Below, piece after piece: positions 11,931 to 58,689 of a stretch of DNA of 64,000 nt (position 1 is the first letter of the stretch; the number at the start of each line of letters is the position of its first letter). The stretch covers positions 1-64,000 of the forward strand of contig QKJR01000027.1 in the NCBI GenBank assembly GCA_003249215.1. The letters run 5' to 3'. The position numbers and the translations under genes are program-made. Source of the stretch: Rhodobacterales bacterium. GTDB taxonomy: Bacteria; Pseudomonadota; Alphaproteobacteria; Rhodobacterales; Rhodobacteraceae. The notes below the pieces were generated by a model. That model was not told where the DNA came from and made no database searches. It saw only the letters and a list, made by a program, of their open reading frames with translations.

Positions 11931-12070
11931 AAGGGGCTCTGCCCCTCGCCCCTGCGGGGCTCACCCCGGGATATTTTCGTCAGGTTGAAGGCACGCGGCT
12001 TTGCTCCTTTCAACCTGATCCAAATATCCCGGGGAGAATTTGCCGAAGGCAAAGAGGGGCAGAGCCCCTT
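11931..12070. repeat. Full copy (B) of a dispersed long palindromic element
   Basis: This 140-base nested inverted repeat fills most of the 382-base gap between cycA and ctaD. The outer 17 bases (11931-11947 and 12054-12070) are perfect inverted complements, and each arm is itself a hairpin (GGGGC-TCT-GCCCC). Further in are the hairpins GCCCC/GGGGC and TTTGCC/GGCAAA, the pair CCCCGGGATATTT (11964-11976) and AAATATCCCGGGG (12022-12034), and CAGGTTGAA (11981-11989) against TTCAACCTG (12009-12017). Confidence 0.85.
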
Positions 12071-12219
12071 ACCTTCTGCGCCTCAGCCCCGCCATCCTGC
12101 GACATTTTTTCACATGCAGAGCGCCGAAATCGTGGACGCAGCGAAAAATGCGTCTTACGCTTGGCGGTGCGCAGTCTCGGGAACGGGAGATACCGGGGCC
12201 GCGAAAGAGGGAGATCAGC

Positions 12220-13890
12220 ATGGCGGACGCAGCCGTTCACGGCGGTGCGCATGAGGCCCGCGGGTTCTTTACCCGCTGGTTCATGTCCACCAACCACAAG
12301 GATATCGGAATTCTCTATCTCTTCACCGCGGGGGCCGTCGGGCTCATCTCGGTGATGTTCACGGTCTACATGCGGCTCGAGCTGATGCATCCGGGCGTGC
12401 AATACATGTGCCAGGAAGGCGCACGGCTGATCGCCGATGCCAGCAGCGACTGCACCCCGGACGGCCATCTGTGGAACGTGATGATCACCTATCACGGCGT
12501 GCTGATGATGTTCTTCGTGGTGATCCCGGCGCTGTTTGGCGGCTTTGGCAATTATTTCATGCCGCTGCATATCGGTGCGCCGGACATGGCCTTTCCGCGG
12601 CTGAACAACCTCAGCTACTGGCTCTACGTCGCCGGCGTCGCGCTCGGCATTGCCTCGCTCTTTGCACCGGGTGGCGGGGGCGGACATGGTGCGGGGGTGG
12701 GTTGGGTGCTTTATCCGCCGCTGTCCACCAACGAAGACGGCTATGCGATGGATCTGGCGATCTTCGCGGTCCATGTCTCGGGCGCCAGCTCGATCCTCGG
12801 CGCGATCAACATGATCACCACCTTCCTGAACATGCGCGCGCCGGGGATGACTCTGCACAAGGTGCCGCTCTTCGGCTGGTCGATCTTCGTGACTTCGTGG
12901 CTGATCCTGCTCAGCCTGCCGGTTCTGGCCGGCGCGATCACCATGCTTCTGATGGACCGTAACTTCGGCACGACCTTCTTCGATCCGGCCGGCGGCGGTG
13001 ACCCGATCCTCTATCAGCACATTCTGTGGTTCTTCGGTCACCCCGAGGTCTATATCATCATCCTGCCGGGCTTCGGCATCATCAGCCATGTGATCGCGAC
13101 CTTCTCGAAGAAGCCGATCTTCGGCTATCTGCCGATGGTCTATGCTATGGTGGCGATCGGGGTGCTGGGCTTCGTCGTCTGGGCGCACCATATGTACACC
13201 GTGGGCCTCAGCCTGACGCAGCAGAGCTATTTCATGCTGGCGACCATGGTCATCGCGGTGCCCACGGGCGTGAAGGTGTTTAGCTGGATCGCGACGATGT
13301 GGGGCGGCTCGATCGAGTTCAAGACGCCGATGCTCTGGGCCTTCGGCTTCCTGTTCCTCTTCACTATCGGCGGCGTGACCGGCGTGGTGCTGAGCCAGGC
13401 GCCGCTCGACCGGGTCTATCACGACACCTATTACGTGGTGGCGCATTTCCACTACGTGATGAGCCTCGGCGCGGTCTTCGCGATATTTGCCGGGATCTAT
13501 TTCTGGATCGGCAAGATGTCGGGCCGGCAATATCCGGAATGGGCGGGCAAGCTGCATTTCTGGGCGATGTTCATCGGCTCGAACCTGATCTTCTTCCCGC
13601 AGCACTTCCTTGGCCGGCAGGGGATGCCGCGGCGCTATATCGACTATCCCGAGGCCTTCGCCACCTGGAACTTCGTGAGCTCCATCGGCGCCTTCATCAG
13701 CTTCGCCTCCTTCGTCTTCTTCATCGGGGTGGTGTTCTACACGCTCTTCTTCGGCAAGAAGGTGACCGAGAAGAACTACTGGAACGAATATGCCGATACG
13801 CTGGAATGGACCCTGCCCAGCCCGCCGCCCGAGCATACGTTCGAACAGCTGCCCAAGCGGGAAGACTGGGATCACAGCCACGCGCATTGA
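12220..13890 (+). CDS. ctaD: Cytochrome c oxidase (aa3-type) subunit I
   Basis: The 556-residue integral membrane protein carries the haem a and haem a3-CuB centres of the proton-pumping terminal oxidase. The marker motifs are present: [11 protein letters not shown] at the N terminus, [20 protein letters not shown] with the CuB histidines, and [15 protein letters not shown] with the haem ligands. The ATG at 12220 follows GAGGGAGAT; the frame is open further upstream, but that part is low-complexity intergenic repeat. No other cta genes are nearby. In Paracoccus a ctaD gene also lies next to the cytochrome c550 gene cycA, so this pairing with cytochrome c2 looks ancestral. A DUF2244 gene follows after 4 bases. 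Confidence 0.95.
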
Positions 13891-13894
13891 TCCG

Positions 13895-14410
13895 ATGCCC
13901 TACGCCTGGACCAAACTCGAGGCGGCCCCGGAGCAATCCGGGGCCGTCTGGCTATTGACCATCCGGCCGTTCCGCTCACTGCCCCGGCGCGGCTTCGTGC
14001 TGTTCATTGCGGCGACGGCACTGGCACTCGCGCTGCCGCTTCTGGCGGTGCTCGGCTCGGTCGTGCTCTGGGGGCTTTTACCCTTCTTCCTCGGCACGCT
14101 CTGGGCGGTATGGGCGGCACTTGGTCACAGCTACCGCACCGGCATGCTCACCGAAGAGCTGCGCCTCGGACCGGGCGAAATCACGCTCGAACATCAGGCG
14201 CCGGGACGCAAGCCGCAGATCTGGACTGCCAATCCCTATTGGGTGCAACCGCGGCTGATTTCGCAGGGACCAGTGGCCGATTATCTCGTGCTCGAAGGCG
14301 GGCCGCGCATCGTCGAACTCGGCCGCTGCCTCACCCCCGAGGAGCGGCGGCGCCTGCGGGAGGACTTGTCCGATAAACTGGCGGCGCTGCGGACGATCGG
14401 TGCGGATTAG
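13895..14410 (+). CDS. DUF2244 membrane protein
   Basis: This 171-residue protein matches the DUF2244 family, with two adjacent membrane segments (about 35-58 and 62-84) followed by a soluble C-terminal domain with a conserved W-x-x-NPYWV-type stretch. It begins four bases after the ctaD stop codon, so it should be co-transcribed with the oxidase gene. The function is unproven; the position suggests a role in oxidase assembly or stability. The ATG at 13895 is the first in frame after ctaD. Confidence 0.75.
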   Translation: MPYAWTKLEAAPEQSGAVWLLTIRPFRSLPRRGFVLFIAATALALALPLLAVLGSVVLWGLLPFFLGTLWAVWAALGHSYRTGMLTEELRLGPGEITLEHQAPGRKPQIWTANPYWVQPRLISQGPVADYLVLEGGPRIVELGRCLTPEERRRLREDLSDKLAALRTIGAD

Positions 14411-14555
14411 GGGCTCTGCCCCTCGCCCGTTCCGGGCTCACCCCGGGATATTTCGATCAGGTTGAAGGGAAAAGCGCGGCGCCCCTCCCTCAACTGTTCA
14501 AAAATATCCCGCAGGGTGAATTTGGCGTCAGCCAAAGAGGGGGCGCGCAGCCCCC
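14411..14555. repeat. Full copy (C) of the dispersed palindromic element
   Basis: The copy starts at the stop codon of the DUF2244 gene. Left half: GGGGC-TCT-GCCCC, GCCCG-TTC-CGGGC, CCCCGGGATATTT. Right half: AAATATCCCGCAGGG, TTTGGC-GTCA-GCCAAA (14521-14536), GGGGGC-GCGCA-GCCCCC (14539-14555). The inner ATCAGGTTGAAGGG arm is only partly matched by the degenerate CCCTCCCTCAACTG. The copy separates two convergent genes and can serve as their terminator. Confidence 0.8.
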
Positions 14556-14564
14556 TGCGCGCTC

Positions 14565-15023
14565 TCAGCCCAGACGGTCCTTGACCATCGGTCCGACCGC
14601 GCCGAAATCCATCTGACCGGTGTATTTCGCCTTCAGCTCGCCCATCACCCGACCCATGTCGCGGATCGAGCTTGCGCCGAGTTTGGCAATCGCCTTGCCG
14701 ATCGCCTCGGTGACCTCTTCGGGGCTGAGCTGGCGGGGCAGGAAATCCTCAATCACGCCGATCTCGGCGAGTTCCTTCTCGGCCAACTCGAGCCGCCCGC
14801 CCTCTTCATAGGCGCGCGCCGATTCCTGGCGCTGCTTGACCATCTTGCCCATGATCGCGAGGATCTCGCCATCGCCGATCTCGACCGCCTCGCCCGCCGT
14901 ACGCAGCGCGATCTCGCGGTCCTTGATCGCCGCATTGATCAGCCGCAGCGTCGAGAGCCGGGTCTGATCCTTGGATTTCATCGCCTCTTTCAAGGCCGTG
15001 CCGATCCGTTCGCGCATCTGCAT
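14565..15023 (-). CDS. GatB/YqeY domain protein
   Basis: The 152-residue protein is a stand-alone GatB/YqeY domain, a helical protein related to the tRNA-binding tail of amidotransferase subunit GatB. Typical features are the N-terminal MRERIGTALKEAMKSKDQ, RLSTLRLINAAIKD and the C-terminal DMGRVMGELKAKYTGQMD. The start at 15023 (MQMRER) follows a GGAAGA ribosome site; the frame is open upstream but that part has no family similarity. The gene is divergent from carA. The cellular role of YqeY proteins is not established; tRNA-related activity is inferred from the fold. Confidence 0.85.
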   Translation of the reverse strand: MQMRERIGTALKEAMKSKDQTRLSTLRLINAAIKDREIALRTAGEAVEIGDGEILAIMGKMVKQRQESARAYEEGGRLELAEKELAEIGVIEDFLPRQLSPEEVTEAIGKAIAKLGASSIRDMGRVMGELKAKYTGQMDFGAVGPMVKDRLG

Positions 15024-15130
15024 GAGGTCTTCCCATCTGGTCCAGAGCGCCAGAATACCCGCAGCCGCCGCCCGACACAAGTCACACAACCCATTGATAA
15101 CATTGACATTCAAGAAAGTTTCCAAGCCAC

Positions 15131-15159
15131 TTGACGCCCCCGCCCCGCCCCCGTAGGTT
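15131..15159 (+). promoter_or_regulatory. Sigma-70-type promoter of carA
   Basis: TTGACG (15131-15136) and TAGGTT (15154-15159) are separated by exactly 17 bases, about 30 bases ahead of the carA ATG. The same TAGGTT -10 sequence is found before pyc. Confidence 0.55.
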
Positions 15160-15188
15160 CCAGCAGATTTTGCCCGGGGAGTCGCGCC

Positions 15189-16355
15189 ATGCCTGTCAAC
15201 CATCAGTCATCGGAAAAACCCACCGCGTTGATCGCGCTCGCCGATGGTCAGCTCTTCTACGGCAAGGGCTTCGGCGCAACGGGTACCACGGTCGCCGAGC
15301 TCGTCTTCAACACTGCGATGACCGGCTATCAGGAAATCATGACCGACCCGAGCTATGCTGGTCAGGTCGTGACCTTCACCTTCCCGCATGTCGGCAACGT
15401 CGGCGTCACCCCCGAGGATGACGAGACCGCCGATCCGGTGGCCGCGGGCCTCGTGGTGAAATGGGACCCGACCGAACCTTCGAACTGGCGCGCCTCCGAG
15501 GATCTGGTGAGCTGGCTCGGCAAACGCGGCCGGATCGGCGTCGGTGGCATCGACACCCGCCGCCTGACCCGCGCGATCCGCCAGCAGGGCGCGCCGCATG
15601 TCGCCCTCGCCCATGACCCCGACGGTAATTTCGACATCGAGGGCCTCGTGCGCAAGGCGCGCGAGTGGAAGGGCCTTGTGGGCCTCGACCTCGCCAAGGA
15701 TGTGACCTGCGCGCAGAGCTACACCTGGGACGAGATGCGTTGGGCCTGGCCCGAGGGCTATGCCAAGCGCGAGGGCGCGGGCTTCAAGGTTGTCGCGATC
15801 GACTATGGCGCGAAGCGCAACATCCTGCGCTGCCTCGCCTCGGCGGGCTGCGATGTGACCGTTCTGCCCGCCACCGCCACCGCCGAGGAGGTGCTCGCGC
15901 TCAATCCCGAGGGTGTGTTCCTGTCGAACGGCCCGGGCGATCCGGCGGCGACCGGTGCCTATGCCGTGCCGATGATCCAGGGCGTGCTCAAGGCCGATCT
16001 GCCGGTCTTCGGGATCTGCCTCGGGCATCAGATGCTGGCGCTGGCGCTCGGTGCCAAGACGATCAAGATGAACCACGGCCACCATGGCGCGAACCACCCG
16101 GTCAAGGATCTGACCACCGGCAAGGTCGAGATCACCTCGATGAACCACGGCTTTGCGGTGGACAGCCAGACCCTGCCCGCGGGCGTGGCCGAGACCCATG
16201 TGAGCCTCTTCGACGGCTCGAACTGCGGGATCGCGATCGAGGACCGGCCGGTCTTCTCGGTGCAATATCACCCCGAGGCGAGCCCGGGCCCGCAGGACAG
16301 CTATTACCTCTTCGAGCGCTTCGCCGAGGCGATGCGCGCGCGCCGCGCCGCCTGA
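15189..16355 (+). CDS. carA: Carbamoyl-phosphate synthase small (glutaminase) subunit
   Basis: The 388-residue CarA subunit hydrolyses glutamine and channels ammonia to CarB, which makes carbamoyl phosphate for arginine and pyrimidine synthesis. The N-terminal domain has FNTAMTGYQEIMTDPSYAGQ. The class I amidotransferase domain shows the nucleophile in FGICLGHQM (about residue 275) and the His/Glu pair in QYHPEASPGP (about residue 360). The length is standard. carB is not in the window. A hairpin terminator follows, so it is a single-gene transcript. Confidence 0.96.
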   Translation: MPVNHQSSEKPTALIALADGQLFYGKGFGATGTTVAELVFNTAMTGYQEIMTDPSYAGQVVTFTFPHVGNVGVTPEDDETADPVAAGLVVKWDPTEPSNWRASEDLVSWLGKRGRIGVGGIDTRRLTRAIRQQGAPHVALAHDPDGNFDIEGLVRKAREWKGLVGLDLAKDVTCAQSYTWDEMRWAWPEGYAKREGAGFKVVAIDYGAKRNILRCLASAGCDVTVLPATATAEEVLALNPEGVFLSNGPGDPAATGAYAVPMIQGVLKADLPVFGICLGHQMLALALGAKTIKMNHGHHGANHPVKDLTTGKVEITSMNHGFAVDSQTLPAGVAETHVSLFDGSNCGIAIEDRPVFSVQYHPEASPGPQDSYYLFERFAEAMRARRAA

Positions 16356-16377
16356 GGCGGACGGAAACCGGCTTCGA

Positions 16378-16401
16378 GGGCGGCGCCTGCGCCGCCCTTT
16401 T
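16378..16401 (+). terminator. Terminator after carA
   Basis: The stem GGGCGGCG/CGCCGCCC with a tight loop is followed by TTTT, 22 bases after the stop codon. Confidence 0.8.
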
Positions 16402-16513
16402 GCGTTGCAGTGCAAAAGAGAAACAAAATCTCCGGTTGTAAGCGGTATTGTTAACGCCCCATTAACCATCCGCCCGCCACTGTCGGCCTCGGGACAGTGT
16501 TTTCGAGGGACAG

Positions 16514-18583
16514 ATGGGACGGGTCATTGCGCTCCGGCCGGTGCCGGGGGCGTCGGAACGGACGACGCTTTCAGAGCTTCTGGCAAAACGGCGGATCCGG
16601 CTCGTGCATGCGGCCGAGGACGAGGGGCCCGCCACCCCCGCCCCCGTGGCGAACCGCCGCCCGCTGGGCCAGATCCTGCTCGAACGCGGGGCGCTGGCGC
16701 CCGGCGATCTGATCAAGGCGCTCGCGCTGCGCAACCGCGAGGATGTGCGGCTGGGCGACATCCTGCTCACCCATGGCTGGGTGCGCGAGGCCGATCTAAT
16801 GGCGGCGCTCGCCGCCCAGTGGAATGCCGCGGTGGTCGATCTGATCGCCGAGCGTCCCGATCCCCGGCTGATCGACGCCCTTGGCCCCGAGCTTTGCCTG
16901 CGCGAGGCGATGGTGCCCTGGCGCCGGATCGGCGGCGTCACCCTGATCGCCACCGCCCGCCCCGAGGCCTTCGCCAGCCTGCGCCCCTATCTGCCCGAAG
17001 AACTCGGCCCCTACCGCATGGTGCTCGCCCCCGAGCGCGACGTGCATTCCGCGCTGCTCGCCGGGCGGCAGACCGCATTGATCCGGCGCGCCGAGACCAA
17101 GGTCGACCCCGAGGAAAGCTGTCGCAACCGCAACGAGGCGCGCGCCTCGCGGCTCACCTTCGGGATCATCGCGCTCTCGATCTCGGGGCTCGTGCTCGCG
17201 CCGCATCTCGTCTTCGCGCTGCTGATGGGCTGGGCGCTGATCACGCTCATCGCGACGAGCGGGCTCAAATTCACCGCCTGGATCGTCGAGGCCCGCGCCC
17301 AGCGCCTGGCCGACCGCAACCCCAAGGCCCTGCCGCAGGGCCCCGCGGCGCCGATCCGCCTGCCGATCGTGTCGATCATGGTGCCGCTGTTCCGCGAGAC
17401 CGACATCGCCGAACGCCTCGTCGCGCGGCTCGGGCGGCTGAACTACCCGCGCGAATTGCTCGATATCCTGCTCGTGGTCGAAGAGGATGACGCCACCACC
17501 CGCGCCACCCTCGGCGCGGCGCGCTTGCCGCGCTGGATGCGCACCGTCACCGTGCCGCGCGGCCCGATCAAGACCAAGCCCCGCGCGCTCAACTATGCGC
17601 TCAACTTCTGCCGCGGCGCGATCGTGGGCATCTATGACGCCGAGGATCAGCCCGACCCCGAGCAATTGCATGTGGTCACCCGCCGCTTCGCCGAGGCCCC
17701 GCCCGAGGTGGCCTGCCTGCAGGGCATCCTCGACTATTACAACCCGCGCACCAACTGGCTCTCGCGCTGCTTCACCGTCGAATATGCCGCATGGTTCCGC
17801 GCCATGCTGCCCGGGATCGCGCGGATGGGGCTCGTCGTGCCGCTCGGGGGCACGACGCTCTTCTTCCGGCGCGAGACGATCGAGGAGTTGGGCGGGTGGG
17901 ATGCGCATAACGTGACCGAGGATGCCGATCTGGGCATCCGTCTGGCGCGCCACGGCTATCGCACCGAGCTGATCCCGACCGTGACACATGAAGAGGCGAA
18001 CTGCCGCGCGCTCCCTTGGGTCAAGCAGCGCTCGCGTTGGATCAAGGGCTATGCGATGACCTGGGCGGTGCATATGCGCGACCCGGTCCGGCTCTGGCGC
18101 GAACTGGGGCCGAAGCGTTTCATCGGGCTGCAGATCCTGATCTTCGGCTCGCTTTCGCAATATCTTCTGGCGCCGGTGATGTGGAGCTTCTGGCTCGTGA
18201 TGCTCGGCCTGCCGCATCCGATCGACGCGCTTCTGACGCCGATGATGCACCATGCGGTGCTGTTCCTGTTCATCTCGACGGAACTGGTGAACATCGCGGT
18301 CGGCGCCTGGGCGGTGCGGGGCAAACAGCACCGGCATCTGATGAAATGGGTGCCGACGCTGCATGTCTATTTCCCGCTCGGGGCGCTCGCGGGCTGGAAG
18401 GCGATCTACGAGGTGGTGACGCGCCCCTTCTACTGGGACAAGACGATGCATGGCGTCTTCGACACGCTGCAGCATGTGGTGCCGGGCGCCCAAGGCTCGG
18501 ATCTGGTACCGGCGATTGCGGCGGCCACCGCGGCCGCTCAGGTGCCCGCGCCGCGCACCGCACTCGCCCCGCTCATCGACTGA
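16514..18583 (+). CDS. Membrane glycosyltransferase (GT2) with N-terminal GspE/MshE-like domain
   Basis: The protein is 689 residues. Residues about 55-190 resemble the MshEN/GspE N-terminal domain (LGQILLERGAL, RLGDILLTHGWV), which in some proteins binds c-di-GMP. Two membrane segments (about 215-255) precede a family 2 glycosyltransferase domain (about 285-520) with YDAEDQPDP (DxD-type), TEDADLGIR and the processive-enzyme motif Q505-xx-R508-W509. Further membrane segments follow (about 535-640). The architecture resembles the inner-membrane synthases of the N4 adsorption protein B and cellulose synthase group. It probably makes or exports a polysaccharide; the sugar and polymer are unknown. 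No other polysaccharide genes are adjacent. Confidence 0.8.
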   Translation: MGRVIALRPVPGASERTTLSELLAKRRIRLVHAAEDEGPATPAPVANRRPLGQILLERGALAPGDLIKALALRNREDVRLGDILLTHGWVREADLMAALAAQWNAAVVDLIAERPDPRLIDALGPELCLREAMVPWRRIGGVTLIATARPEAFASLRPYLPEELGPYRMVLAPERDVHSALLAGRQTALIRRAETKVDPEESCRNRNEARASRLTFGIIALSISGLVLAPHLVFALLMGWALITLIATSGLKFTAWIVEARAQRLADRNPKALPQGPAAPIRLPIVSIMVPLFRETDIAERLVARLGRLNYPRELLDILLVVEEDDATTRATLGAARLPRWMRTVTVPRGPIKTKPRALNYALNFCRGAIVGIYDAEDQPDPEQLHVVTRRFAEAPPEVACLQGILDYYNPRTNWLSRCFTVEYAAWFRAMLPGIARMGLVVPLGGTTLFFRRETIEELGGWDAHNVTEDADLGIRLARHGYRTELIPTVTHEEANCRALPWVKQRSRWIKGYAMTWAVHMRDPVRLWRELGPKRFIGLQILIFGSLSQYLLAPVMWSFWLVMLGLPHPIDALLTPMMHHAVLFLFISTELVNIAVGAWAVRGKQHRHLMKWVPTLHVYFPLGALAGWKAIYEVVTRPFYWDKTMHGVFDTLQHVVPGAQGSDLVPAIAAATAAAQVPAPRTALAPLID

Positions 18584-18589
18584 CCGGGA

Positions 18590-19228: not shown

Positions 19229-19410
19229 CTCGCACCTCGTTCGGATCCGGGCCGCTTCGTCAGACCGGTCTCCGGCGCGAAACCTTAGGCAAGCCCCCCC
19301 GCCGAGACAAGCGGACATTCCGGCCTGTGGCGATCAGGCCCCGACAGACGCCCCGAGACCCGCAGCCGCGCCCCGTTGCCGCGCCGGGCGCGCAAGGATA
19401 GGGTCTGGGC

Positions 19411-22103: not shown

Positions 22104-22231
22104 GGGGGCCCTGCCCCCGTCCCTTCGGGACTCCCCCGGGATATTTGGGCACAGATGATGCACAACCCGGCTCATCAACTGTGCCCAAATATCCCGGGGT
22201 GAGGCGCGCCCGCGCCGAGGGGCAGCGCCCC
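22104..22231. repeat. Full copy (D) of the dispersed palindromic element
   Basis: Left half: GGGGGC-CCT-GCCCCC, TCCC-TTC-GGGA, CCCCCGGGATATTTGGGCACAG. Right half: CTGTGCCCAAATATCCCGGGG, the GGCGCG/CGCGCC hairpin, GGGGC-AGC-GCCCC (22219-22231). The inner arm sequence (GGGCACAG/CTGTGCCC, with TGATG/CATCA nearer the centre) differs from copies B, C and E but pairs just as well. The copy separates the convergent hydroxylase gene and urtE and abuts the urtE stop codon. Confidence 0.85.
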
Positions 22232-22232
22232 T

Positions 22233-31223: not shown

Positions 31224-32929
<1,706 letters not shown>

Positions 32930-32930
<1 letters not shown>

Positions 32931-43996: not shown

Positions 43997-44030
43997 GCCT
44001 CCGGCGGGAGTATTTTTCCAAGGAAAATCA
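43997..44030. repeat. Second dispersed intergenic motif (copy 1), downstream of glyS
   Basis: The 19-base sequence GCCTCCGGCGGGAGTATTT (43997-44015) is adjacent to a small inverted repeat ATTTTTCC/AGGAAAAT. Its exact complement recurs at 49536-49554. Seen in the direction of the preceding gene, both copies read AAATACTCCCGCCGGAGGC just after a stop codon. Confidence 0.6.
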
Positions 44031-49493: not shown

Positions 49494-49535
49494 CGCGCCC
49501 CGGCATCGGGCTTTTCATCATGCTTTTCCTGGCGC

Positions 49536-49554
49536 AAATACTCCCGCCGGAGGC
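49536..49554. repeat. Second dispersed intergenic motif (copy 2), downstream of the pseudoprotease gene
   Basis: AAATACTCCCGCCGGAGGC is the exact reverse complement of 43997-44015 and is preceded by a TTTTCCTGG stretch, as in copy 1. It lies in the gap between two convergent gene ends. Confidence 0.6.
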
Positions 49555-49563
49555 GTCCTGACC

Positions 49564-51212: not shown

Positions 51213-51260
51213 TTTGCAAACTTCACGAAATTGGTCAGCTAATTTGCTCAATTTCGCAAA
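51213..51260 (+). promoter_or_regulatory. TTTGCAAA-type (ScfR/RamB-like) operator candidates before pyc
   Basis: GAAACTTTGCAAAC contains a perfect TTTGCAAA (51213-51220). A second site, TTTGC-N8-GCAAA (51243-51260), directly precedes the -35 element. The first closely matches the known RamB box (ACTTTGCAAA) of Corynebacterium, and the ScfR relatives such as PccR of Rhodobacter recognise TTTGC/GCAAA motifs. Confidence 0.5.
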
Positions 51261-51266
51261 ATAAAC

Positions 51267-51294
51267 TTGCGCCGCACCGCAGCAACGCTAGGTT
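51267..51294 (+). promoter_or_regulatory. Candidate sigma-70 promoter of pyc
   Basis: TTGCGC (51267-51272) and TAGGTT (51289-51294) are 16 bases apart, about 30 bases ahead of the pyc ATG. The -10 equals that of carA. Confidence 0.45.
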
Positions 51295-51323
51295 TGGGCA
51301 TCATCTGCCGGGGAGGTCCAAAG

Positions 51324-54300
51324 ATGTTCCGGAAAATCCTCATCGCCAACCGTGGTGAAATCGCCATCCGCGTCATGCGCGCGGCCAACGAGATGGGCAA
51401 GAAGACGGTCGCCGTCTATGCCGAGGAAGACAAGCTCTCGCTGCACCGTTTCAAGGCCGACGAGGCGTATCGCATCGGCGAGGGGCTCTCGCCCGTGGGC
51501 GCCTATCTGTCGATCCCCGAGATCATCCGGGTGGCCAAGGAATCGGGCGCCGATGCGATCCACCCGGGCTATGGGCTCCTCTCCGAGAACCCCGATTTCG
51601 TCGAGGCCTGCGCCGAGGCGGGCATCACCTTCATCGGCCCCAAGGCCGCGACGATGCGCGCGCTTGGCGACAAGGCCTCGGCCCGCCATGTGGCGATCAA
51701 GGCGGGCGTGCCGGTGATCCCGGCGACCGAGGTTCTGGGCGATGATTTCGACGCGATCAAGCGCGAGGCCGCCGAGATCGGCTATCCGCTGATGCTCAAG
51801 GCGAGCTGGGGCGGCGGCGGGCGCGGCATGCGCCCGATCATGGGGCCCGACGAGGTGATCGAGAAGGTCCGCGAGGGCCGCCGCGAGGCCGAGGCCGCCT
51901 TCGGCAATGGCGAGGGTTACCTCGAGAAGATGATCCTGCGTGCGCGCCACGTCGAGGTGCAGCTCTTGGGCGACACCCATGGCGGGCTCTATCACCTCTA
52001 TGAGCGCGACTGCACCGTTCAGCGCCGCAACCAGAAGGTCGTCGAGCGCGCCCCGGCCCCCTATCTGACCGAGGAACAACGCGCCGAGGTCTGCGCACTG
52101 GCGCTGAAAATCGGCAATGCGGTGGGCTACGAATGCGCCGGCACGGTCGAATTCCTGATGGATATGGACAGTAGCCAGTTCTATTTCATCGAGGTGAACC
52201 CGCGGGTGCAGGTCGAGCATACGGTGACCGAAGAGATCACCGGCATCGACATCGTGCAAAGCCAGATCCGCATCGCCGAGGGCGCGACCCTGGCCGAGGC
52301 GACGGGTGTTGCGAGCCAGGACGACATCAAGATCTCGGGCCATGCGGTGCAATGCCGGGTCACCACCGAAGACCCGCAGAACAATTTCATCCCCGATTAT
52401 GGCCGCCTGACCGCCTATCGCTCGGCCACCGGCATGGGGATCCGCCTCGATGGCGGCACGGCCTATGCCGGCGGCGTCATCACGCGCTATTATGACAGCC
52501 TTCTGGTGAAGGTCACCGCCTGGGCCCCGACCCCCGATGCGGCGATCCACCGGATGGACCGGGCCTTGCGCGAATTCCGGATCCGCGGCGTCTCGACCAA
52601 CATCGACTTCGTCATCAACCTGCTCAAGCATCCGACCTTCCTGGACATGAGCTATACGACGAAGTTCATCGACACCACGCCGGACCTGTTCCACTTCAAG
52701 AAGCGGCGCGACCGGGCGACCAAGATCCTCACCTATATCGCCGATATTTCGGTCAACGGTCACCCCGAGACGGCCGGCCGCCCGAAACCCCATGCCGAGG
52801 CGAAGCCCCCGCGCCTGCCGCCGGTGACGGGCCCGGTGGTGCCGGGCACCCGCGATCTGCTGGAGACGCAGGGGCCGAAGGCGGTCGCCGACTGGATGCT
52901 GGCACAAAAGAAGCTCCTGCTGACCGACACGACGATGCGCGACGGGCACCAGTCGCTGCTCGCCACGCGGATGCGTTCGATCGACATGATCAAGGCCGCG
53001 CCGCTTTATGCCAGCAACCTCTCGGGCCTCTTCTCGGTCGAATGCTGGGGCGGCGCGACCTTCGACGTGGCCTATCGCTTCTTGCAGGAATGCCCCTGGC
53101 AGCGCCTGCGCGACATCCGCGCGCAGATGCCCAACATCCTGACGCAGATGCTGCTGCGCGCCTCGAACGGGGTGGGCTACACCAACTACCCGGATAACGT
53201 CGTGCAGTTCTTCGTGGGCCAGGCGGCGAAATCCGGCGTCGACGTGTTCCGCGTCTTCGACAGCCTGAACTGGGTCGAGAACATGCGCGTGGCGATGGAT
53301 GCGGTCGTTGAGGCGAACAAGATCTGCGAGGGCACGATCTGCTACACCGGCGACATCCTGAACCCGGATCGGGCGAAATACGACCTCAAGTATTACGTCG
53401 CGATGGGCAAGGAGCTCGAGGCCGCGGGCGCGCATGTGCTGGGGCTCAAGGACATGGCGGGGCTTCTGAAACCCGCCGCCGCGCGGGCGCTGATCAAGGC
53501 CTTGAAGGAAGAGGTCGGCCTGCCGATCCATTTCCACACGCATGACACGAGCGGCATTGCCGGGGCGACGGTTCTGGCCGCGGCCGATGCCGGCGTCGAT
53601 GCGGTCGATGCGGCGATGGATGCGTTCAGTGGCGGCACTTCGCAGCCCTGCCTCGGCTCGATCGTCGAGGCGGTGGCGCATACCGAGCGCGACACAGGCC
53701 TCGATATCGGTGCGATCCGGATGATGTCGAACTATTGGGAGGGCGTGCGCCACCAATATGCGGCCTTTGAAAGCGGGCTCGAGGCGCCGGCCTCCGAGGT
53801 CTATCTGCACGAGATGCCCGGCGGTCAGTTCACCAACCTCAAGGCGCAGGCGCGCAGCCTCGGCCTCGAGGAGCGCTGGCACGAGGTGGCGCAGGCCTAT
53901 GCCGACGCCAACCAGATCTTCGGCGATATCGTCAAGGTCACGCCGTCCTCGAAGGTCGTGGGCGACATGGCTCTGATGATGGTGGCGCAGGGGCTTTCCA
54001 AGGCCGACGTGCTCGACCCGGCCAAGGATGTCGCCTTCCCCGATTCGGTGATCGACATGCTCAAGGGCAATCTTGGCCAGCCCCCCGGCGGCTGGCCCGC
54101 GGGGATCGTGGCCAAGGTGCTCAAGGGCGAGACCGCCTCGACCGAGCGCCCCGGCAAGCATCTGCCCGCGGTCGATCTCGAGGAGACGCGCGCGAAGCTT
54201 TCGGCCGAGCTCAACGGCTACAAGGTCGATGACGAGGATCTCGCGGGGTATCTGATGTATCCCAAGGTCTTCCTCGATTACATGGGCCGGCACCGCCTCT

Positions 54301-54758
54301 ATGGCCCGGTGCGCACCCTGCCGACGCCCGTCTTCTTCTACGGGATGAAGCAGGGCGACGAGATCTCGGCCGAGATCGACCCCGGCAAGACGCTTGAGAT
54401 CCGCTATCAGACGATGAGCGAGGTCGACGAGGCGGGCGAGGTGAAGGTCTTCTTCGAGCTGAACGGCCAGCCCCGCGCGGTGCGGGTACCCAACCGTCTG
54501 GCCAAGGCCGCGACCAAGGCGAAACCCAAGGCCGATCCGGCCAATGCCGCCCATATCGGTGCGCCGATGCCGGGCGTCGTGGCCTCGATCGCGGTGAGCG
54601 TCGGGCAGAAGATCCATGCGGGCGATCTGCTGCTCACGATCGAGGCGATGAAGATGGAAACCGGGATCCACGCCGACCGCGAGGCGGTGGTGAAGGCGCT
54701 GCATGTGACGCCCGGCGCCCAGATCGACGCCAAGGATCTGCTGATCGAGCTCGAATGA
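51324..54758 (+). CDS. pyc: Pyruvate carboxylase
   Basis: The 1144-residue single-chain biotin enzyme makes oxaloacetate from pyruvate and bicarbonate with ATP, refilling the TCA cycle. It has a biotin carboxylase domain (about 1-450; LKASWGGGGRGMR, EVNPRVQVEHTVTE), a carboxyltransferase barrel (about 530-800; TTMRDGHQSLLATRMR, ECWGGATFDVAYRFL, HFHTHDTSG), and a C-terminal biotinyl domain with K1110 in EAMKMETG. The start at 51324 (MFRKILIANRGEIA) follows GGGGAGG. A terminator follows. It works at the same pyruvate/PEP node as the PPDK homologue. Confidence 0.98.
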   Translation: MFRKILIANRGEIAIRVMRAANEMGKKTVAVYAEEDKLSLHRFKADEAYRIGEGLSPVGAYLSIPEIIRVAKESGADAIHPGYGLLSENPDFVEACAEAGITFIGPKAATMRALGDKASARHVAIKAGVPVIPATEVLGDDFDAIKREAAEIGYPLMLKASWGGGGRGMRPIMGPDEVIEKVREGRREAEAAFGNGEGYLEKMILRARHVEVQLLGDTHGGLYHLYERDCTVQRRNQKVVERAPAPYLTEEQRAEVCALALKIGNAVGYECAGTVEFLMDMDSSQFYFIEVNPRVQVEHTVTEEITGIDIVQSQIRIAEGATLAEATGVASQDDIKISGHAVQCRVTTEDPQNNFIPDYGRLTAYRSATGMGIRLDGGTAYAGGVITRYYDSLLVKVTAWAPTPDAAIHRMDRALREFRIRGVSTNIDFVINLLKHPTFLDMSYTTKFIDTTPDLFHFKKRRDRATKILTYIADISVNGHPETAGRPKPHAEAKPPRLPPVTGPVVPGTRDLLETQGPKAVADWMLAQKKLLLTDTTMRDGHQSLLATRMRSIDMIKAAPLYASNLSGLFSVECWGGATFDVAYRFLQECPWQRLRDIRAQMPNILTQMLLRASNGVGYTNYPDNVVQFFVGQAAKSGVDVFRVFDSLNWVENMRVAMDAVVEANKICEGTICYTGDILNPDRAKYDLKYYVAMGKELEAAGAHVLGLKDMAGLLKPAAARALIKALKEEVGLPIHFHTHDTSGIAGATVLAAADAGVDAVDAAMDAFSGGTSQPCLGSIVEAVAHTERDTGLDIGAIRMMSNYWEGVRHQYAAFESGLEAPASEVYLHEMPGGQFTNLKAQARSLGLEERWHEVAQAYADANQIFGDIVKVTPSSKVVGDMALMMVAQGLSKADVLDPAKDVAFPDSVIDMLKGNLGQPPGGWPAGIVAKVLKGETASTERPGKHLPAVDLEETRAKLSAELNGYKVDDEDLAGYLMYPKVFLDYMGRHRLYGPVRTLPTPVFFYGMKQGDEISAEIDPGKTLEIRYQTMSEVDEAGEVKVFFELNGQPRAVRVPNRLAKAATKAKPKADPANAAHIGAPMPGVVASIAVSVGQKIHAGDLLLTIEAMKMETGIHADREAVVKALHVTPGAQIDAKDLLIELE

Positions 54759-54794
54759 GCCCCGCCCCGGCGACGGGGCCCCGAAAATGCGGCG

Positions 54795-54824
54795 GGGGCG
54801 GTGCGACAAAGGCGCCGCCCCTTT
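54795..54824 (+). terminator. Terminator after pyc
   Basis: The stem GGGGCGGTGC/GCGCCGCCCC (one G-T type mismatch) with a seven-base loop is followed by TTT, 36 bases after the stop codon. Confidence 0.7.
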
Positions 54825-54912
54825 CGCTTGCCGAGCCAACGCTCTTGCCCTGCGGGCGTGAACGACTAGGCTCACCCCTTCACCCACCCCGCGACCTGGC
54901 CAAGGATTTCCG

Positions 54913-55287
54913 ATGATCACCGCCTATTACGCGCTGCCGCTGGTGGCGCTCTATATCTTCCTCTCCGTCCATGTGGTGAAGTTCCGCAAGGCCCATCACG
55001 TCTCGATCGGCGATGGCGGGCATGAGGATCTCGCGCTGCGGATGCGCACCCATGGCAACTGGTCGGAATATGCGCCGCTCGGCCTGATCGTGCTGGCGCT
55101 GGCCGAGCTTTCGGGCGTCTGGCCGCTCCTCGTGCATCTGTGCGGGCTGGCGCTTCTGGCCGGGCGCGCACTGCATGCCTGGGGGCTTGGCTTCGGTGGG
55201 CCGCTCGGGGCGCGCGTCGCGGGGATGGCGCTCACCTTCCTCGCGCTCGCCCTTGCCTCCCTCGCCGCGGTGATCGCGAGCTTCTGA
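54913..55287 (+). CDS. MAPEG-family membrane protein
   Basis: The 124-residue protein has four membrane segments of the MAPEG family (membrane-associated eicosanoid/glutathione metabolism). The typical patch is VVKFRKAHHVSIGDGGHEDLALRMRTHGNWSEYAPL (about 22-57), shared with bacterial YecN-like proteins. Glutathione-linked detoxification is the family expectation; the substrate is unknown. It is preceded by the pyc terminator and convergent with the CsbD gene. Confidence 0.85.
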   Translation: MITAYYALPLVALYIFLSVHVVKFRKAHHVSIGDGGHEDLALRMRTHGNWSEYAPLGLIVLALAELSGVWPLLVHLCGLALLAGRALHAWGLGFGGPLGARVAGMALTFLALALASLAAVIASF

Positions 55288-55313
55288 GCCCGCCCGCCCC
55301 AAAGAGCCAAGCA

Positions 55314-55337
55314 AAAGGGGGGCCTTTGCCCCCCTTT
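55314..55337. terminator. Bidirectional terminator between MAPEG and CsbD genes
   Basis: AAAGGGGGG-N6-CCCCCCTTT forms a perfect 9-bp stem with A/T tracts on both sides, placed between two convergent genes. Confidence 0.8.
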
Positions 55338-55373
55338 CGTCCAAACCGCGCCGCGACGTGGCCCGCGACCGGA

Positions 55374-55571
55374 TCAGAGCGCGTCGATGAAGTCCTCGAC
55401 TTCCTTCTTCGCGGCCTCTTTCGTTTTGCCGTATTTCTGCTGCACGAGGCCTTCGAGGCGCTCGCGGTTGCCCGCGACCTGATCGACCTCGTCATCGGTC
55501 AGCTCGCCCCATTTGGCGCGCACCGTGCCCTTGGCTTCTTTCCATTTGCCTTCAAGGATGTCCTTGTTCAT
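55374..55571 (-). CDS. CsbD-family stress-response protein
   Basis: The 65-residue, highly charged CsbD-like protein reads MNKDILEGKWKEAKGTVRAKWGELTDDE and then a Lys/Glu-rich helical tail. The family is induced by general stress in many bacteria; the molecular role is unknown. The start at 55571 follows an AGGAGGACCG ribosome site. Confidence 0.88.
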   Translation of the reverse strand: MNKDILEGKWKEAKGTVRAKWGELTDDEVDQVAGNRERLEGLVQQKYGKTKEAAKKEVEDFIDAL

Positions 55572-55679
55572 CGCTCGGTCCTCCTGATGCTGCGCGGGGC
55601 CCATCCCCGCTTCCCCCTCTCAACCCGCAGCCCGCGCCCGGGGTTCCCCAAGATTTTCCGACAGCCCTGAATTTTTCCC

Positions 55680-55707
55680 TTGCAGCCCTTCGCCCGATCT
55701 CCTAAAT
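55680..55707 (+). promoter_or_regulatory. Candidate promoter of the tRNA-Gly pair
   Basis: TTGCAG (55680-55685) and CTAAAT (55702-55707) are separated by 16 bases, about 22 bases ahead of the first tRNA-Gly. Confidence 0.4.
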
Positions 55708-55728
55708 CCCCCTCCACCGAACCGGTGC

Positions 55729-55803
55729 GCGGGCGTAGCTCAGGGGTAGAGCATAACCTTGCCAAGGTTAGGGTCGTGAGTTCGAATCTCATCGCCCGCT
55801 CCA
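55729..55803 (+). tRNA. tRNA-Gly (anticodon GCC), copy 1
   Basis: The 75-base sequence has acceptor stem GCGGGCG/CGCCCGC, D-arm GCTCAGGGGTAGAGC, anticodon arm TAACC-TTGCCAA-GGTTA (anticodon GCC), T-arm GTTCGAATC and encoded CCA. Confidence 0.97.
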
Positions 55804-55836
55804 GTTCGGACACCCGGCCTTCGGGCCAGCCAGGAT

Positions 55837-55911
55837 GCGGGCGTAGCTCAGGGGTAGAGCATAACCTTGCCAAGGTTAGGGTCGTGAGTTCGAATCTCAT
55901 CGCCCGCTCCA
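55837..55911 (+). tRNA. tRNA-Gly (anticodon GCC), copy 2
   Basis: This sequence is identical over all 75 bases to the first copy, from which it is separated by 33 bases holding a small GGCC-TTC-GGGCC hairpin. The pair is probably one transcript ending at the terminator ten bases on. Confidence 0.97.
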
Positions 55912-55920
55912 ACGAAAACA

Positions 55921-55951
55921 GGCCGCCCACGGGGTTCCCGGGCGGCCTTTT
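55921..55951 (+). terminator. Terminator after the tRNA-Gly pair
   Basis: The perfect stem GGCCGCCC/GGGCGGCC is followed by TTTT. Confidence 0.9.
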
Positions 55952-55974
55952 CGTTTGCCTCCCCCCAATCCCGC

Positions 55975-56004
55975 TTGAGCCCGCGCCCTGCCCCGCCCTA
56001 TAAG
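55975..56004 (+). promoter_or_regulatory. Candidate promoter of hisBH
   Basis: TTGAGC (55975-55980) and TATAAG (55999-56004) are 18 bases apart, about 27 bases before the hisB ATG. Confidence 0.5.
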
Positions 56005-56030
56005 GCCCTGACACCACGAAAGGGACGAGC

Positions 56031-56618
56031 ATGCGGACCGCTTCGATCACGCGCAAGACCGCCGAGACCGCCATCACCGTCGAGATCGACCTCGACGGCA
56101 CCGGCGCCTATGACAACGAGACCGGGGTCGGCTTCTTCGACCACATGCTCGATCAGCTCGCGCGCCATTCGCTCATCGACATCAAGATCCGCGCCCGGGG
56201 CGACACCCATATCGACGATCACCACACCGTCGAAGATACCGGCATCGCGCTGGGGCAAGCGCTGACGCAGGCGCTCGGCGACAAGAAGGGCATCCGCCGC
56301 TACGGGCATTTCGCGCTCGCGATGGATGACGCGCAGGTGAGTTGCGCGCTCGATCTCTCGGCGCGGCCTTTCCTCGTGTGGAATTGCGACATGCCCACGG
56401 CCAAGATCGGCACCTTCGACACCGAACTGGTGCGCGAATTCTTTCAGGCGCTTGCCACCCATGGCGGGATCACGCTGCATATCGACCGCGTCCACGGGAT
56501 CAACAGCCACCACATCGCCGAGGCCGCCTTCAAGGCCGTCGCGCGCAGCTTGCGCATGGCGGTCGAGCCCGATCCGCGGATGGCCGGCGTGCTGCCCTCG
56601 ACCAAGGGGGCGCTCTGA
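56031..56618 (+). CDS. hisB: Imidazoleglycerol-phosphate dehydratase
   Basis: HisB, 195 residues, is the stand-alone bacterial dehydratase of histidine synthesis. The metal-binding histidine motifs are seen in [30 protein letters not shown] and [19 protein letters not shown]. The length is normal. Its stop shares one base with the hisH start. Confidence 0.97.
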
Positions 56619-57256
56619 TGCTGACGGCGCTGATCGACTATGACAGCGGCAACCTGCATTCGGCGCAGAAGGCCTTCGAGCGGATGGCCCATGAGGCGGG
56701 TTCGGGCACGATCGTCGTGACCTCCGAGCCCGATGTGGTGGCCAAGGCCGACCGGATCGTGTTGCCGGGCGACGGGGCGTTTCCGTCCTGCCGCCGCGCG
56801 CTCGATGCCTTCGGCGGCCTCTTCGAGGCGATCGAGGAGGGGGTGCACAAACAGGGCAAGCCCTTCCTCGGCATCTGCATCGGGATGCAGATGATGGCGA
56901 CCCGCGGGCTCGAATTCGAACCGACCGAGGGCTTTGGCTGGATCCCGGGCCAAGTCGAGCCGATCCGGCCGGCCGATCCCGCGCTCAAGGTGCCGCATAT
57001 GGGCTGGAACGATCTGGTGATCGACCGGCCGCATGCGCTGCTTGCGGGGATCTCGACCGGCGATCACGCCTATTTCGTGCACAGCTTCCACTTCAAGGTG
57101 GGGCACCCCGAGCATCTGCTGGCGCATGCCGATTACGCGGGGCCCATTACCGCAATCGTCGGGCGCGACAATATGGTCGGCACCCAGTTCCACCCCGAGA
57201 AATCGCAGGCGACCGGCCTGCGGCTGATCTCGAATTTCCTCGCCTGGAAACCCTGA
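56618..57256 (+). CDS. hisH: Imidazole glycerol phosphate synthase glutaminase subunit
   Basis: HisH, 212 residues, supplies ammonia to HisF. The nucleophilic Cys lies in FLGICIGMQMMATRG (about residue 87), and the His/Glu pair lies in TQFHPEKSQ (about residues 192-196). The start at 56618 overlaps the hisB stop by one base. hisF is not seen here; hisA follows after an oppositely oriented gene. Confidence 0.97.
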   Translation: MLTALIDYDSGNLHSAQKAFERMAHEAGSGTIVVTSEPDVVAKADRIVLPGDGAFPSCRRALDAFGGLFEAIEEGVHKQGKPFLGICIGMQMMATRGLEFEPTEGFGWIPGQVEPIRPADPALKVPHMGWNDLVIDRPHALLAGISTGDHAYFVHSFHFKVGHPEHLLAHADYAGPITAIVGRDNMVGTQFHPEKSQATGLRLISNFLAWKP

Positions 57257-57280
57257 TCCGGCAAAGCCTGTTTCCAGCAA

Positions 57281-57302
57281 AAAGGGCGCCGCGGCGCCCT
57301 TT
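57281..57302. terminator. Bidirectional terminator between hisH and the DUF2147 gene
   Basis: AAAGGGCGCC-GC-GGCGCCCTTT is a perfect palindrome with A and T tracts, serving both convergent genes. Confidence 0.85.
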
Positions 57303-57324
57303 CTCCTGCGCGGGGCTCAAGCGA

Positions 57325-57708
57325 TCACTTCAGCCGCGACCAGTTCTGTTTGGCGCAGATCAGCCCGCCCGCGACACAGCCCGAGAGCTTCATCGCATCG
57401 CCATTCAGCGCGATCTTGCCGATATAGGTCTTGTCGTTCGACGGCCGCCAGACCTTGCCCGCATAGGCCCCGCTCCCCTTCGGCGCCATGTCGATCACGA
57501 TCTGCCGTCCCAGATTGGGCGATTTGTATTCGCCGCCATCCTTGAAGGTCCGCACGATCGTGCCGCAGTAATTCGGCCCGCAGGGCGCGATCTGCACCTG
57601 CGCATAGGCGCCGTCGTCGGGCTGCGTCTGCCACATCCCCTCGATCGGATCGGCCATGGCGGCGCCCGCGCCGAGCACGAGGCCCAGCGCCAGAATGATG
57701 GGTTTCAT
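57325..57708 (-). CDS. DUF2147 periplasmic protein
   Basis: The 127-residue protein has a signal peptide (about 1-20, ending AAMADP) and a DUF2147 domain with EGMWQTQPDDGAYAQVQI, the Cys pair in CGPNYCGTIV and LSGCVAGGLICAKQ. The start at 57708 follows GGAGAGACC. It sits between hisH and hisA on the opposite strand and so interrupts the his genes. Function is unknown; some relatives are lipocalin-like. Confidence 0.85.
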   Translation of the reverse strand: MKPIILALGLVLGAGAAMADPIEGMWQTQPDDGAYAQVQIAPCGPNYCGTIVRTFKDGGEYKSPNLGRQIVIDMAPKGSGAYAGKVWRPSNDKTYIGKIALNGDAMKLSGCVAGGLICAKQNWSRLK

Positions 57709-57840
57709 CGGTCTCTCCTCCCGGTTTCCCTGCGCGTCATCAGGCCATGGAGCCCGATTCCCGGCAAGGCTGACGTGACGTTGCGCCCTTGCCCGGCAGG
57801 GGCGCGCGTGGCATGAGGCGGCAAACGACAGGAGAGCCCG

Positions 57841-58557
57841 ATGATCCTTTATCCCGCGATCGACCTCAAGGACGGCCAATGCGTGCGCCTGCTGCATGGC
57901 GAAATGTCGAAGGCCACCGTCTTTGGCGACGATCCGGCGGCGCAGGCGGCGAAATTCGAGGCGGCGGGTTGCGAATGGGTCCACCTCGTGGACCTGAACG
58001 GGGCCTTCGCGGGCGCGCCGGTGAATGGCGCGGCGGTCGAGGCGATCCTTGCGCGGATCAAGGTGCCCGCGCAGCTCGGCGGCGGCATCCGCGACATGGC
58101 CACGATCGAACGCTGGCTCTCGAAGGGCCTCGCCCGCGTGATCCTCGGCACCGTGGCGGTCGAGAACCCCGATCTGGTGCGGCAGGCCGCGCGGGAATTC
58201 CCGGGCAAGGTCGCCGTCGGCATCGACGCGCGCGGCGGGCGCGTGGCGACCAAGGGCTGGGCCGAGGAGACCGATGTGATGGTCACCGATCTGGCGAAAA
58301 GCTTCGAGGATGCGGGCGTCGCCGCGATCATCTACACCGACATCCTGCGCGACGGCGCGATGACCGGCCCGAATATCGAGGCGACCGAGGCGCTCGCCCG
58401 CGCGGTGACCATCCCGGTGATCGCGAGCGGAGGCGTCTCCTCCCTGCCCGATCTGCTCGCCCTGCGCGACACCGGCGTCATCGCCGGCGCGATCTCGGGG
58501 CGGGCGATCTATGACGGCGCCCTCGATCTGACCGAGGCACTGGCGGCGCTGAAGTAA
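57841..58557 (+). CDS. hisA: ProFAR isomerase HisA
   Basis: HisA, 238 residues, is the (beta/alpha)8-barrel isomerase of the fourth step of histidine synthesis. The N-terminal [14 protein letters not shown] holds the first catalytic Asp, followed by [22 protein letters not shown] with the second Asp, and [11 protein letters not shown]. It has standard length, behind GAGAGCCCG. Its stop codon abuts a copy of the palindromic element. Confidence 0.96.
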
Positions 58558-58689
58558 GGGGGCTCTGCCCCCGCCCGTTCCGGGCTCCCCCGGGATATTT
58601 GGGTCAGGTTGAAAGCCGAAGCCTTCCCTTCAACCTGATCGAAATATCCCCGGGGGTGAGGGCGAAGCCCGAGGGGGGCGGCGCCCCCC
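58558..58689. repeat. Full copy (E) of the dispersed palindromic element
   Basis: Left half: GGGGGC-TCT-GCCCCC (58558-58572), GCCCG-TTC-CGGGC, CCCCCGGGATATTT. Inner arms: TCAGGTTGAA and TTCAACCTGA. Right half: AAATATCCCCGGGGG, GGGC-GAA-GCCC, GGGGGGC-GGC-GCCCCCC (58673-58689). The copy begins directly after the hisA stop codon. Confidence 0.85.

Follow-up and report, generated by a model that had tools for sequence, protein, structure and literature searches.

Tagged palindromic repeat units resembling REP and RPE elements in Rhodobacteraceae

The usual explanation for REP-like repeats is a RAYT transposase. Repeats carrying a CGTC tetranucleotide are reported mainly in alpha-proteobacteria, in all alpha orders (PMC3733652), and some Rhodobacterales repeats may be covered by that survey, the main text of which, species figures aside, does not name Rhodobacter, Paracoccus, Roseobacter, or Ruegeria. 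Rickettsia palindromic elements (RPE), as described in PMC10969869, are about 150 bp long, and nearly half of them lie inside genes. Here, we examine a repeat family in a 64,000-nt window (the whole stretch of DNA analyzed) from a Rhodobacteraceae genome, probably of the genus Thioclava (assembly G000; 3.17 Mb, 102 contigs, 82% complete). We found no description or name for this family in the open literature, in agreement with the original prediction, which knew of none. On balance, we favor the reading that these are small palindromic elements, non-autonomous and of a REP/REPIN- and RPE-like kind, that form one family across the Rhodobacteraceae.

Anatomy of the unit and its copies in the window

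The original prediction described four full and two half copies of a nested palindrome, and this plan is present at all six places. The repeating entity is the half element, here called the unit, and not the whole palindrome. Each unit consists, in order, of a 10-nt tag, a 3-nt spacer, the core AAATAYYCYSGGGG, hairpin 1 (hp1), and the G/C hairpin 2 (hp2), is about 55-60 bp long, and is found either alone or in a tag-to-tag inverted pair. With at most one mismatch, the core AAATATCCCSGGGG has 189 matches in our own assembly, against 0 for a reversed-pattern control, and the exact core occurs in 151/199 sampled Rhodobacteraceae genomes, which bears out the claim of a dispersed palindromic family in Rhodobacterales; across 17 congeners, there are 20 to 332 exact cores per genome. 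The tag is a sharp 10-nt block whose offset from the core is constant at 3 nt, and these intervening nucleotides pair no better than chance. The hp1 loop is GNA on the unit strand in 73/102 cases and in 0 as the reverse complement, compared with 3/334 hairpins from unit-free 3' flanks of G000; such loops could suit RNA as well as folded DNA. The length of the G-run in the core tracks that of the hp2 stem (rho 0.79, n = 143 of 155 units).

The four full elements are inverted pairs to which no strand is assigned. Element 1 (11933..12068) runs hp2, hp1, core, tag, loop, tag, core, hp1, hp2, with the core at 11963-11976 (minus strand) and the tag at 11980-11989 in its left half, and the tag at 12009-12018, the core at 12022-12035 (plus strand), hp1 at 12039-12053 (GAA loop), and hp2 at 12056-12068 in its right half. 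Element 2 (14411..14555), between convergent genes, has cores at 14440-14453 (minus) and 14502-14515 (plus), the latter being degenerate (AAATATCCCGCAGG). Element 3 (22104..22231) lies between ubiH-like and urtE genes, with cores at 22133-22146 (minus) and 22187-22200 (plus) and tags at 22150-22159 and 22174-22183. Element 4 (58558..58689), immediately 3' of the hisA stop codon, has cores at 58587-58600 (minus) and 58642-58655 (plus), tags at 58604-58613 and 58629-58638, hp1 at 58660-58670 (GAA loop), and hp2 at 58673-58689. The half copies are plus-strand single units at 412..479 (tag 412-421, TTTTTCTTGG; core 425-438, AAATACTCTGGGGG; hp1; hp2 463-479) and at 61667..61722 (tag 61667-61676; core 61680-61693; hp1; hp2).

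The earlier reading missed a unit pair just beyond the window (64048-64116) and two single units within it that belong to class III. One lies at 49523..49554 on the plus strand (tag 49523-49532, CTTTTCCTGG; core 49536-49549; AAATACTC and then CCGCCGGAGGC) and has neither hp1 nor hp2; the other, at 43997..44028, is in minus orientation, with its tag at 44019-44028 (TTTTCCTTGG), its core at 44002-44015, and AAATACTCCCGCCGGAGGC at 43997-44015.

All four full copies fold much more strongly than shuffled sequences (z -6.3 to -11.8 as DNA and -6.1 to -11.3 as RNA); the single unit at 425 also beats its shuffles (z -4.1 to -6.0), and that at 61680 folds no more strongly than its own (z -0.7 to -1.3). 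A search of the whole window against Rfam 15 gives no match at the elements, and within 11800-14700 there are matches below the gathering threshold only, the best being mir-2041 (30.9 bits against a cut-off of 70). Element 4 has no match in a plasmid collection, while the exact 14-base core occurs in 61 stretches of viral contigs, a count we judge not to be above chance for a collection of roughly this size.

The original prediction also held that the hairpins keep their pairing through compensatory change. At the one orthologous site used for this comparison (element 3, ubiH-urtE, 10 genomes), 97.6% of alignment cells are paired versus 93.5 in shuffles, 8 pairs have changed on both sides versus 2.7 (0/500 shuffles), and the covariation is 0.139 versus 0.03-0.07 for slid pairing. 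Hairpin 1 is left out of this count because it does not align. The double-sided changes thus uphold structural covariation at this site, a sign of selection on structure, but the inner arms, which had been cited as a second instance, are the 10-nt tags with a free spacer, and part of their apparent covariation may therefore reflect both halves bearing the same tag.

Units at gene ends and within genes

Most units lie 3' of stop codons, in either orientation; a position at gene ends had been noted for the copies in the window. Based on gene calls from a custom script rather than a standard finder, whose possible errors bear on the gap classes, the 54 elements kept fall into 19 convergent, 31 tandem, and 4 divergent gaps, a distribution that differs (p 2e-6) from that of all gaps longer than 60 nt (63/256/114, respectively). 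Within tandem gaps, 29/31 copies are closer to the upstream stop than to the next start.

The convergent-gap excess and the tandem copies near the upstream stop, together with the covariation and the presence of a full element at the ubiH-urtE site in 11/18 genus genomes, speak for bidirectional intrinsic terminators or mRNA 3'-end stabilizers that are under selection and whose similarity is functional. We nevertheless find this reading unlikely, and termination, one of the roles originally proposed, is unlikely to be the primary one. Single units in tandem gaps occur in both orientations (8 and 9), units are present in 7/18 adjacent hisA-hisF gaps, and between the 11931 element and its gene there is, by eye, a terminator-like hairpin, which the three element-free congeners have as well. 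In the units inspected by eye, there is no U-tract at a fixed place, and a weak AUAUUU stretch follows the hairpins in one reading direction only. The GNA loops are likewise unlike those of 29 terminator-like hairpins, of which 0 are GNA, and the tags, described below, are largely genome-specific.

The occurrence of units inside coding frames also argues against termination. In G000 and G012, a gene contains a unit in frame (+66 nt), at a site where the unit is reduced to a minimal form in G003 and G007 and is absent from 14 of the 18 genus genomes, our own being counted among the 18. By eye, this +66 nt unit is flanked by a CCGCGAC direct repeat, but the lengths do not fit a simple duplication, and no clear target-site duplication is established. 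A second case is a single unit within one ORF, presumably xdhA, in G002 and G015, where the tags differ. An 844 kb sample contains 2 cases of units within genes.

Site occupancy, tags, and the spread of units

Empty orthologous sites, which the original prediction suggested looking for, are found in congeners, both at the in-frame gene site and at element 1, which is absent from the orthologous gap in G005, G006, and G007; for element 2, the sole comparable congener gap (G005) has no core. Among 167 orthologous gaps compared between G000 and five congeners, 157 are coreless in both, while a core is present in G000 only in 6, in the other genome only in 2, and in both in 2, counts that do not separate insertion from deletion. 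Some sites are old, such as the ubiH site, where some of the absences (G007, G010) resemble deletion remnants.

The tags are largely genome-specific and often unlike between species at one site, with a mean identity of 0.74-0.79 within genomes and 0.51-0.71 between them. The tag TTCCAATTGC is present in 26/33 listed cores of G010, and TTCGACTTTG in 20/33 listed cores of G017, while unlike tag subfamilies coexist within single genomes. Four gaps are occupied in both G002 and G015 with differing tags, and at the ubiH site the G013 tag is nearer to those of other genomes at that site (0.82) than to those of its own genome (0.69). Within 844 kb of G000, 7/8 non-class-III tag 10-mers of units are seen solely beside cores; TTCATCTGTG has one further occurrence away from cores, and class III tags have 7 occurrences elsewhere. 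We rejected a DNA-uptake-type signal, as the tags accompany units rather than spread genome-wide, and also tag avoidance outside units, for which the expected count is too low (3.85 in total for seven tags) and the "outside" counts are units missed by the mask.

Shared sites with species-specific tags (the ubiH site and the four G002/G015 gaps), minimal and full units at one in-gene position, and the failure to find a transposase would all suit ancient immobile repeats that are homogenized in each genome by gene conversion, without transposition. This too strikes us as improbable, given the sites that are occupied in one congener and vacant in others and the tag subfamilies that coexist in one genome; moreover, a homogenized tag and core that are split by an unhomogenized spacer and flanked by variable hairpins are unlike a simple conversion tract. 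Still less probable is a reading of the units as targets of a DNA- or RNA-binding factor that evolves fast and with which the 10-nt tag co-evolves: the sharpness of the tag, its fixed 3-nt offset, and the confinement of 7/8 non-class-III tags to core-adjacent places are in keeping with such targets, but a single genome has several unlike tags, no factor stands out as a candidate, and, with so few occurrences expected, there is no clear depletion of tags elsewhere.

The original prediction of REP-like mobile units moved by a transposase in trans holds for the REP-like character of the units, but not for the REP-associated tyrosine transposase. With an E. coli control positive, we find no Y1_Tnp domain (PF01797, RAYT) in 16 genus genomes, complete congeners included, and it is present in 0/66 Rhodobacteraceae genomes with >20 cores versus 20/133 others; RAYT is thus rejected as the mobilizer. 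No constant GTAG or CGTC is found at the hairpin foot among 155 units: of 84 units in G000, 6 contain GTAG and 14 contain CGTC, at scattered positions, and in G015 CGTC is confined to one tag subfamily (6/23). The reading as REPINs that depend on a RAYT encoded at another locus, which REPIN-like architecture and copy number (as described in PMC8049555) would favor, is therefore largely refuted and very improbable, unless PF01797 fails to recognize a highly divergent Y1 enzyme or the gene lies in sequence missing from the incomplete genomes. IS110 (PF01548) is present in 12/18 genus genomes, with most matches (10) in the highest-copy genome, G015; as G010, G007 (140 exact cores), and G003 (105 exact cores) have none, it is not supported as the mobilizer. 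Reverse transcriptase (PF00078), present in 9/18, is also patchy, being absent from G000, G010, G013, and others. Searches with these three families reveal no parent transposon.

In the favored reading of small non-autonomous elements, units would be spread and homogenized in trans and mostly tolerated directly 3' of stop codons, and effects on mRNA 3' ends are probably side effects. The hairpins may act as folded single-stranded DNA, because the GNA loops sit on the unit strand. A more specific scheme, which we offer tentatively and regard as possible rather than probable, is an undescribed Rhodobacteraceae homing/transposition system in which a non-Y1 factor would recognize a folded single DNA strand (the GNA-loop hairpin and hp2) plus the genome-specific 10-nt tag, and would rewrite or re-insert units at existing sites, such that tags sweep the genome while positions persist. 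A high-copy REP-like family with no RAYT found, a variable address tag, and in-frame gene copies makes the spread and homogeneity of such repeats testable in culturable bacteria, and is a caution to annotators who would label 3' hairpins of this kind as terminators.

Comparison with known repeat systems

When compared to MITEs such as ERIC-type repeat units (PMC2229807, PMC2759123), the family shares an imperfect palindrome of ~130 bp scattered between genes, whereas its half units stand alone and no parent transposon is found among the enzyme families searched. Like the GTAG- and CGTC-tagged REPs of PMC3733652, the units are tagged palindromic repeats, although neither tetranucleotide is constant in them. 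The likeness to REP/REPIN sequences, as described in PMC8049555, extends to a short palindromic unit, to its occurrence both singly and in pairs inverted about a variable spacer, to copy numbers in the tens to hundreds, and to a mostly extragenic location; the present units differ in that no accompanying Y1_Tnp was found, in combining a core with two outer hairpins and a variable 10-nt tag, and in lying in some cases within genes. This last property they share with RPE, described in PMC10969869 as palindromic repeats whose insertion into coding sequences keeps the reading frame, and here too the gene with an in-frame unit has orthologues without it; the shorter units described here lie mostly 3' of stop codons.

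Unit anatomy and distribution

The six places singled out in the original prediction, with full copies at 11931, 14411, 22104 and 58558 and half copies at 425 and 61680, each hold an element as described when read in the window sequence. The core, AAATATCCCSGGGG, occurs 189 times with ≤1 mismatch in the assembly of this genome (G000; 3.17 Mb, 102 contigs, 82% complete), versus 0 times for the reversed pattern. To describe the unit, we used 844 kb of G000, consisting of the window and 40 further stretches, where cores with ≤2 mismatches number 144 (10 with the pattern reversed); chance matches within genes make up many of those with two mismatches. The unit runs in the order 10-nt tag, 3 nt, core, hairpin 1 (absent in some) and hairpin 2 (often GGGGGCAGMGCCCCC). 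The two tags of an inverted pair agree far more closely with each other than with the tags of other elements (0.86 vs. 0.66 at positions -15 to -4; 26 pairs in G000; 0/5000 permutations), whereas agreement of the 3-nt spacer is no better than chance (0.42 vs. 0.37; 867/5000 permutations). The full element is therefore two units placed tag to tag, and the half copies are single units.

A variant, class III, has the core AAATACTC and the tag TTTTTCTTGG, CTTTTCCTGG or similar, accompanied by hairpins, by a short CCGCCGGAGGC end or by neither; a pattern search places it at 33 sites in the 844 kb. Three minimal pairs of this class that lack G/C hairpins (L064, C41:2533-2595; L032, C46:32760-32822; L060, C88:68868-68921; contig:position in the G000 assembly) follow the plan GAGTATTT-NNN-CCAAGAAAAAGC ... 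GCTTTTTCTTGG-NNN-AAATACTC, or one close to it.

The host is probably a Thioclava, within the Rhodobacteraceae, because its best HisA matches are to Thioclava atlantica and Rhodobacter sp. TJ_12 (both 93%, in a search from which own-genome records may be omitted). Database labels group it with its congeners, G001-G017, as one genus. Across 199 genomes of the family, two of them from this genus, at least one exact core is present in 151, more than 20 in 66 and at least 100 in 7, against a maximum of 1 per genome for the reversed pattern. In other families of the class, 3 of 16 genomes have one core match each.

Covariation and hairpin loops

At the ubiH-urtE gap, which holds the element at 22104, inspection by eye of 18 genus genomes, including G000, reveals a full element in 11, remnants in 4, a single unit beside another gene in G002, and no element in G005 (rearranged) and G007. 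We aligned 10 of the 11 full elements, omitting that of G015 for its long loop and leaving hairpin 1 outside the count. In this alignment, 97.6% of cells are paired, compared with 42-61% in slid controls, and 8 pairs are altered on both sides versus a shuffled mean of 2.7 (0/500), which bears out, at this one site, the compensatory change claimed originally.

Hairpin 1 was assessed through its loops. In 155 units of seven genomes, we find 102 hairpin-1 stems of at least 4 bp, whose loops on the unit strand include 73 GNA and 7 GNRA (0 on the reverse complement); G000 alone contributes 36 GNA and 5 GNRA of 51. Control hairpins with a slightly stricter stem of at least 5 bp, from 395 unit-free 3' flanks of G000, have 3 GNA and 12 GNRA loops among 334, with 0 GNA loops among the 29 followed by TTT. 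GNA mini-hairpins are described as extraordinarily stable in DNA (PMC4686876), and the GNA loops of hairpin 1 may point to recognition of single-stranded DNA. The length of the core G-run also matches that of the hairpin 2 stem (rho 0.79, 143 of the 155 units), the two being mostly equal (5/5, 4/4, 6/6), so that either G-run could in principle pair with a single C-run, the two in competition.

Tags, gene context and turnover

Genome-wide tag lists, drawn from exact cores without G at position -18, cover 17/20 cores in G001, 27/36 in G005, 33/35 in G010 and 33/39 in G017. Among these, TTCCAATTGC accounts for 26/33 in G010 and TTCGACTTTG for 20/33 in G017, while G001 has TTCGACTTTG in 8/17 and TTCATCTTGC in 5/17, and G005 has TTCAATGTGG, TTCAACGTGG and TTCGGCTTTG in 12, 6 and 5 of 27. 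The G000 sample, class III excluded, has TTCAACCTGA in 36/75 and ATCATCTGTG in 15/75; several subfamilies appear in G015 among 100 of 310 matches listed. Mean tag identity is 0.74-0.79 within versus 0.51-0.71 between the four listed genomes, and 0.67-0.78 versus 0.46-0.62 in sampled stretches of G000, G013, G002 and G015. Two observations speak against a simple tag sweep: G001 and G017 have the tag TTCGACTTTG in common, and at the ubiH site the tag of G013 resembles those of other species at that site (0.82) more than the tags of its own genome (0.69).

After exclusion of cores inside genes, single two-mismatch cores and weaker pairs, 54 elements remain, 19 in convergent, 31 in tandem and 4 in divergent gaps, versus 63/256/114 among all gaps >60 nt (n=433; p 2e-6). 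In tandem gaps, 29/31 elements are closer to the upstream stop, and single units occur in both orientations (8 and 9). A terminator-like hairpin precedes the element at 11931, and by eye G005, G006 and G007 have such a hairpin there and no element. Among 80 retrieved hisA loci, hisF follows immediately in 18 (the pattern misses some), 7 of them with a unit in the gap; a unit lies within 220 nt in 7 of the remaining 62.

Orthologous gap comparisons of G000 with five congeners (n=167) place a core in neither genome in 157, in G000 only in 6, in the other only in 2 and in both in 2; for 4 of 8 core-bearing G000 gaps, none of the five congeners offers a comparable gap. In a block syntenic between G002 and G015, four gaps have units in both species, with different tags; in a fifth gap only G015 has a unit, and a pair at the edge of the block is found in G002 and not in G015. 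Both species also carry a unit inside a presumed xdhA ORF. Two coding-frame units occur in the 844 kb, at C41:82137 and C81:87829 (the latter at the C-terminus). At the former site, G000 and G012 have the full unit, G003 and G007 a minimal one, and the other 14 of 18 genus genomes none. This distribution is the best indication of insertion, as well as of a switch in unit type at a single site.

The window also contains many 27-nt direct repeats (6297-7702) within a long ORF on the minus strand (5300-8173), which would fit a protein built of 9-residue repeats, presumably RTX-like. An Rfam match to 5' ureB sRNA (RF02514, 119 bits) at 32490-32777, antisense to a long minus-strand ORF (31224-32930), is possibly just urease gene sequence. 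Identical tRNA-Gly(GCC) genes stand in tandem at 55729-55803 and 55837-55911.

Mobilization and known systems

The REP-associated tyrosine transposase suggested by the original prediction did not emerge: its domain, Y1_Tnp (PF01797), was not found in 16 genus genomes and, in the family set, is present in 0/66 genomes with >20 cores versus 20/133 others. Matches to IS110 (PF01548) and RVT_1 (PF00078) are patchy among genomes. The family has most likely spread in trans by a non-Y1 process, with 3'-UTR effects of the units probably by-products. We found no earlier description in the open-access literature, core strings included, and a prior account in subscription papers is possible. CGTC REPs are reported in all alpha-proteobacterial orders (PMC3733652); in the 155 units studied here, neither tetranucleotide, GTAG or CGTC, is a constant feature. 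Membership in REPIN/RAYT fails on both the enzyme and the tetranucleotide tag, and the family is REP/REPIN-like and RPE-like, with compensatory structure.
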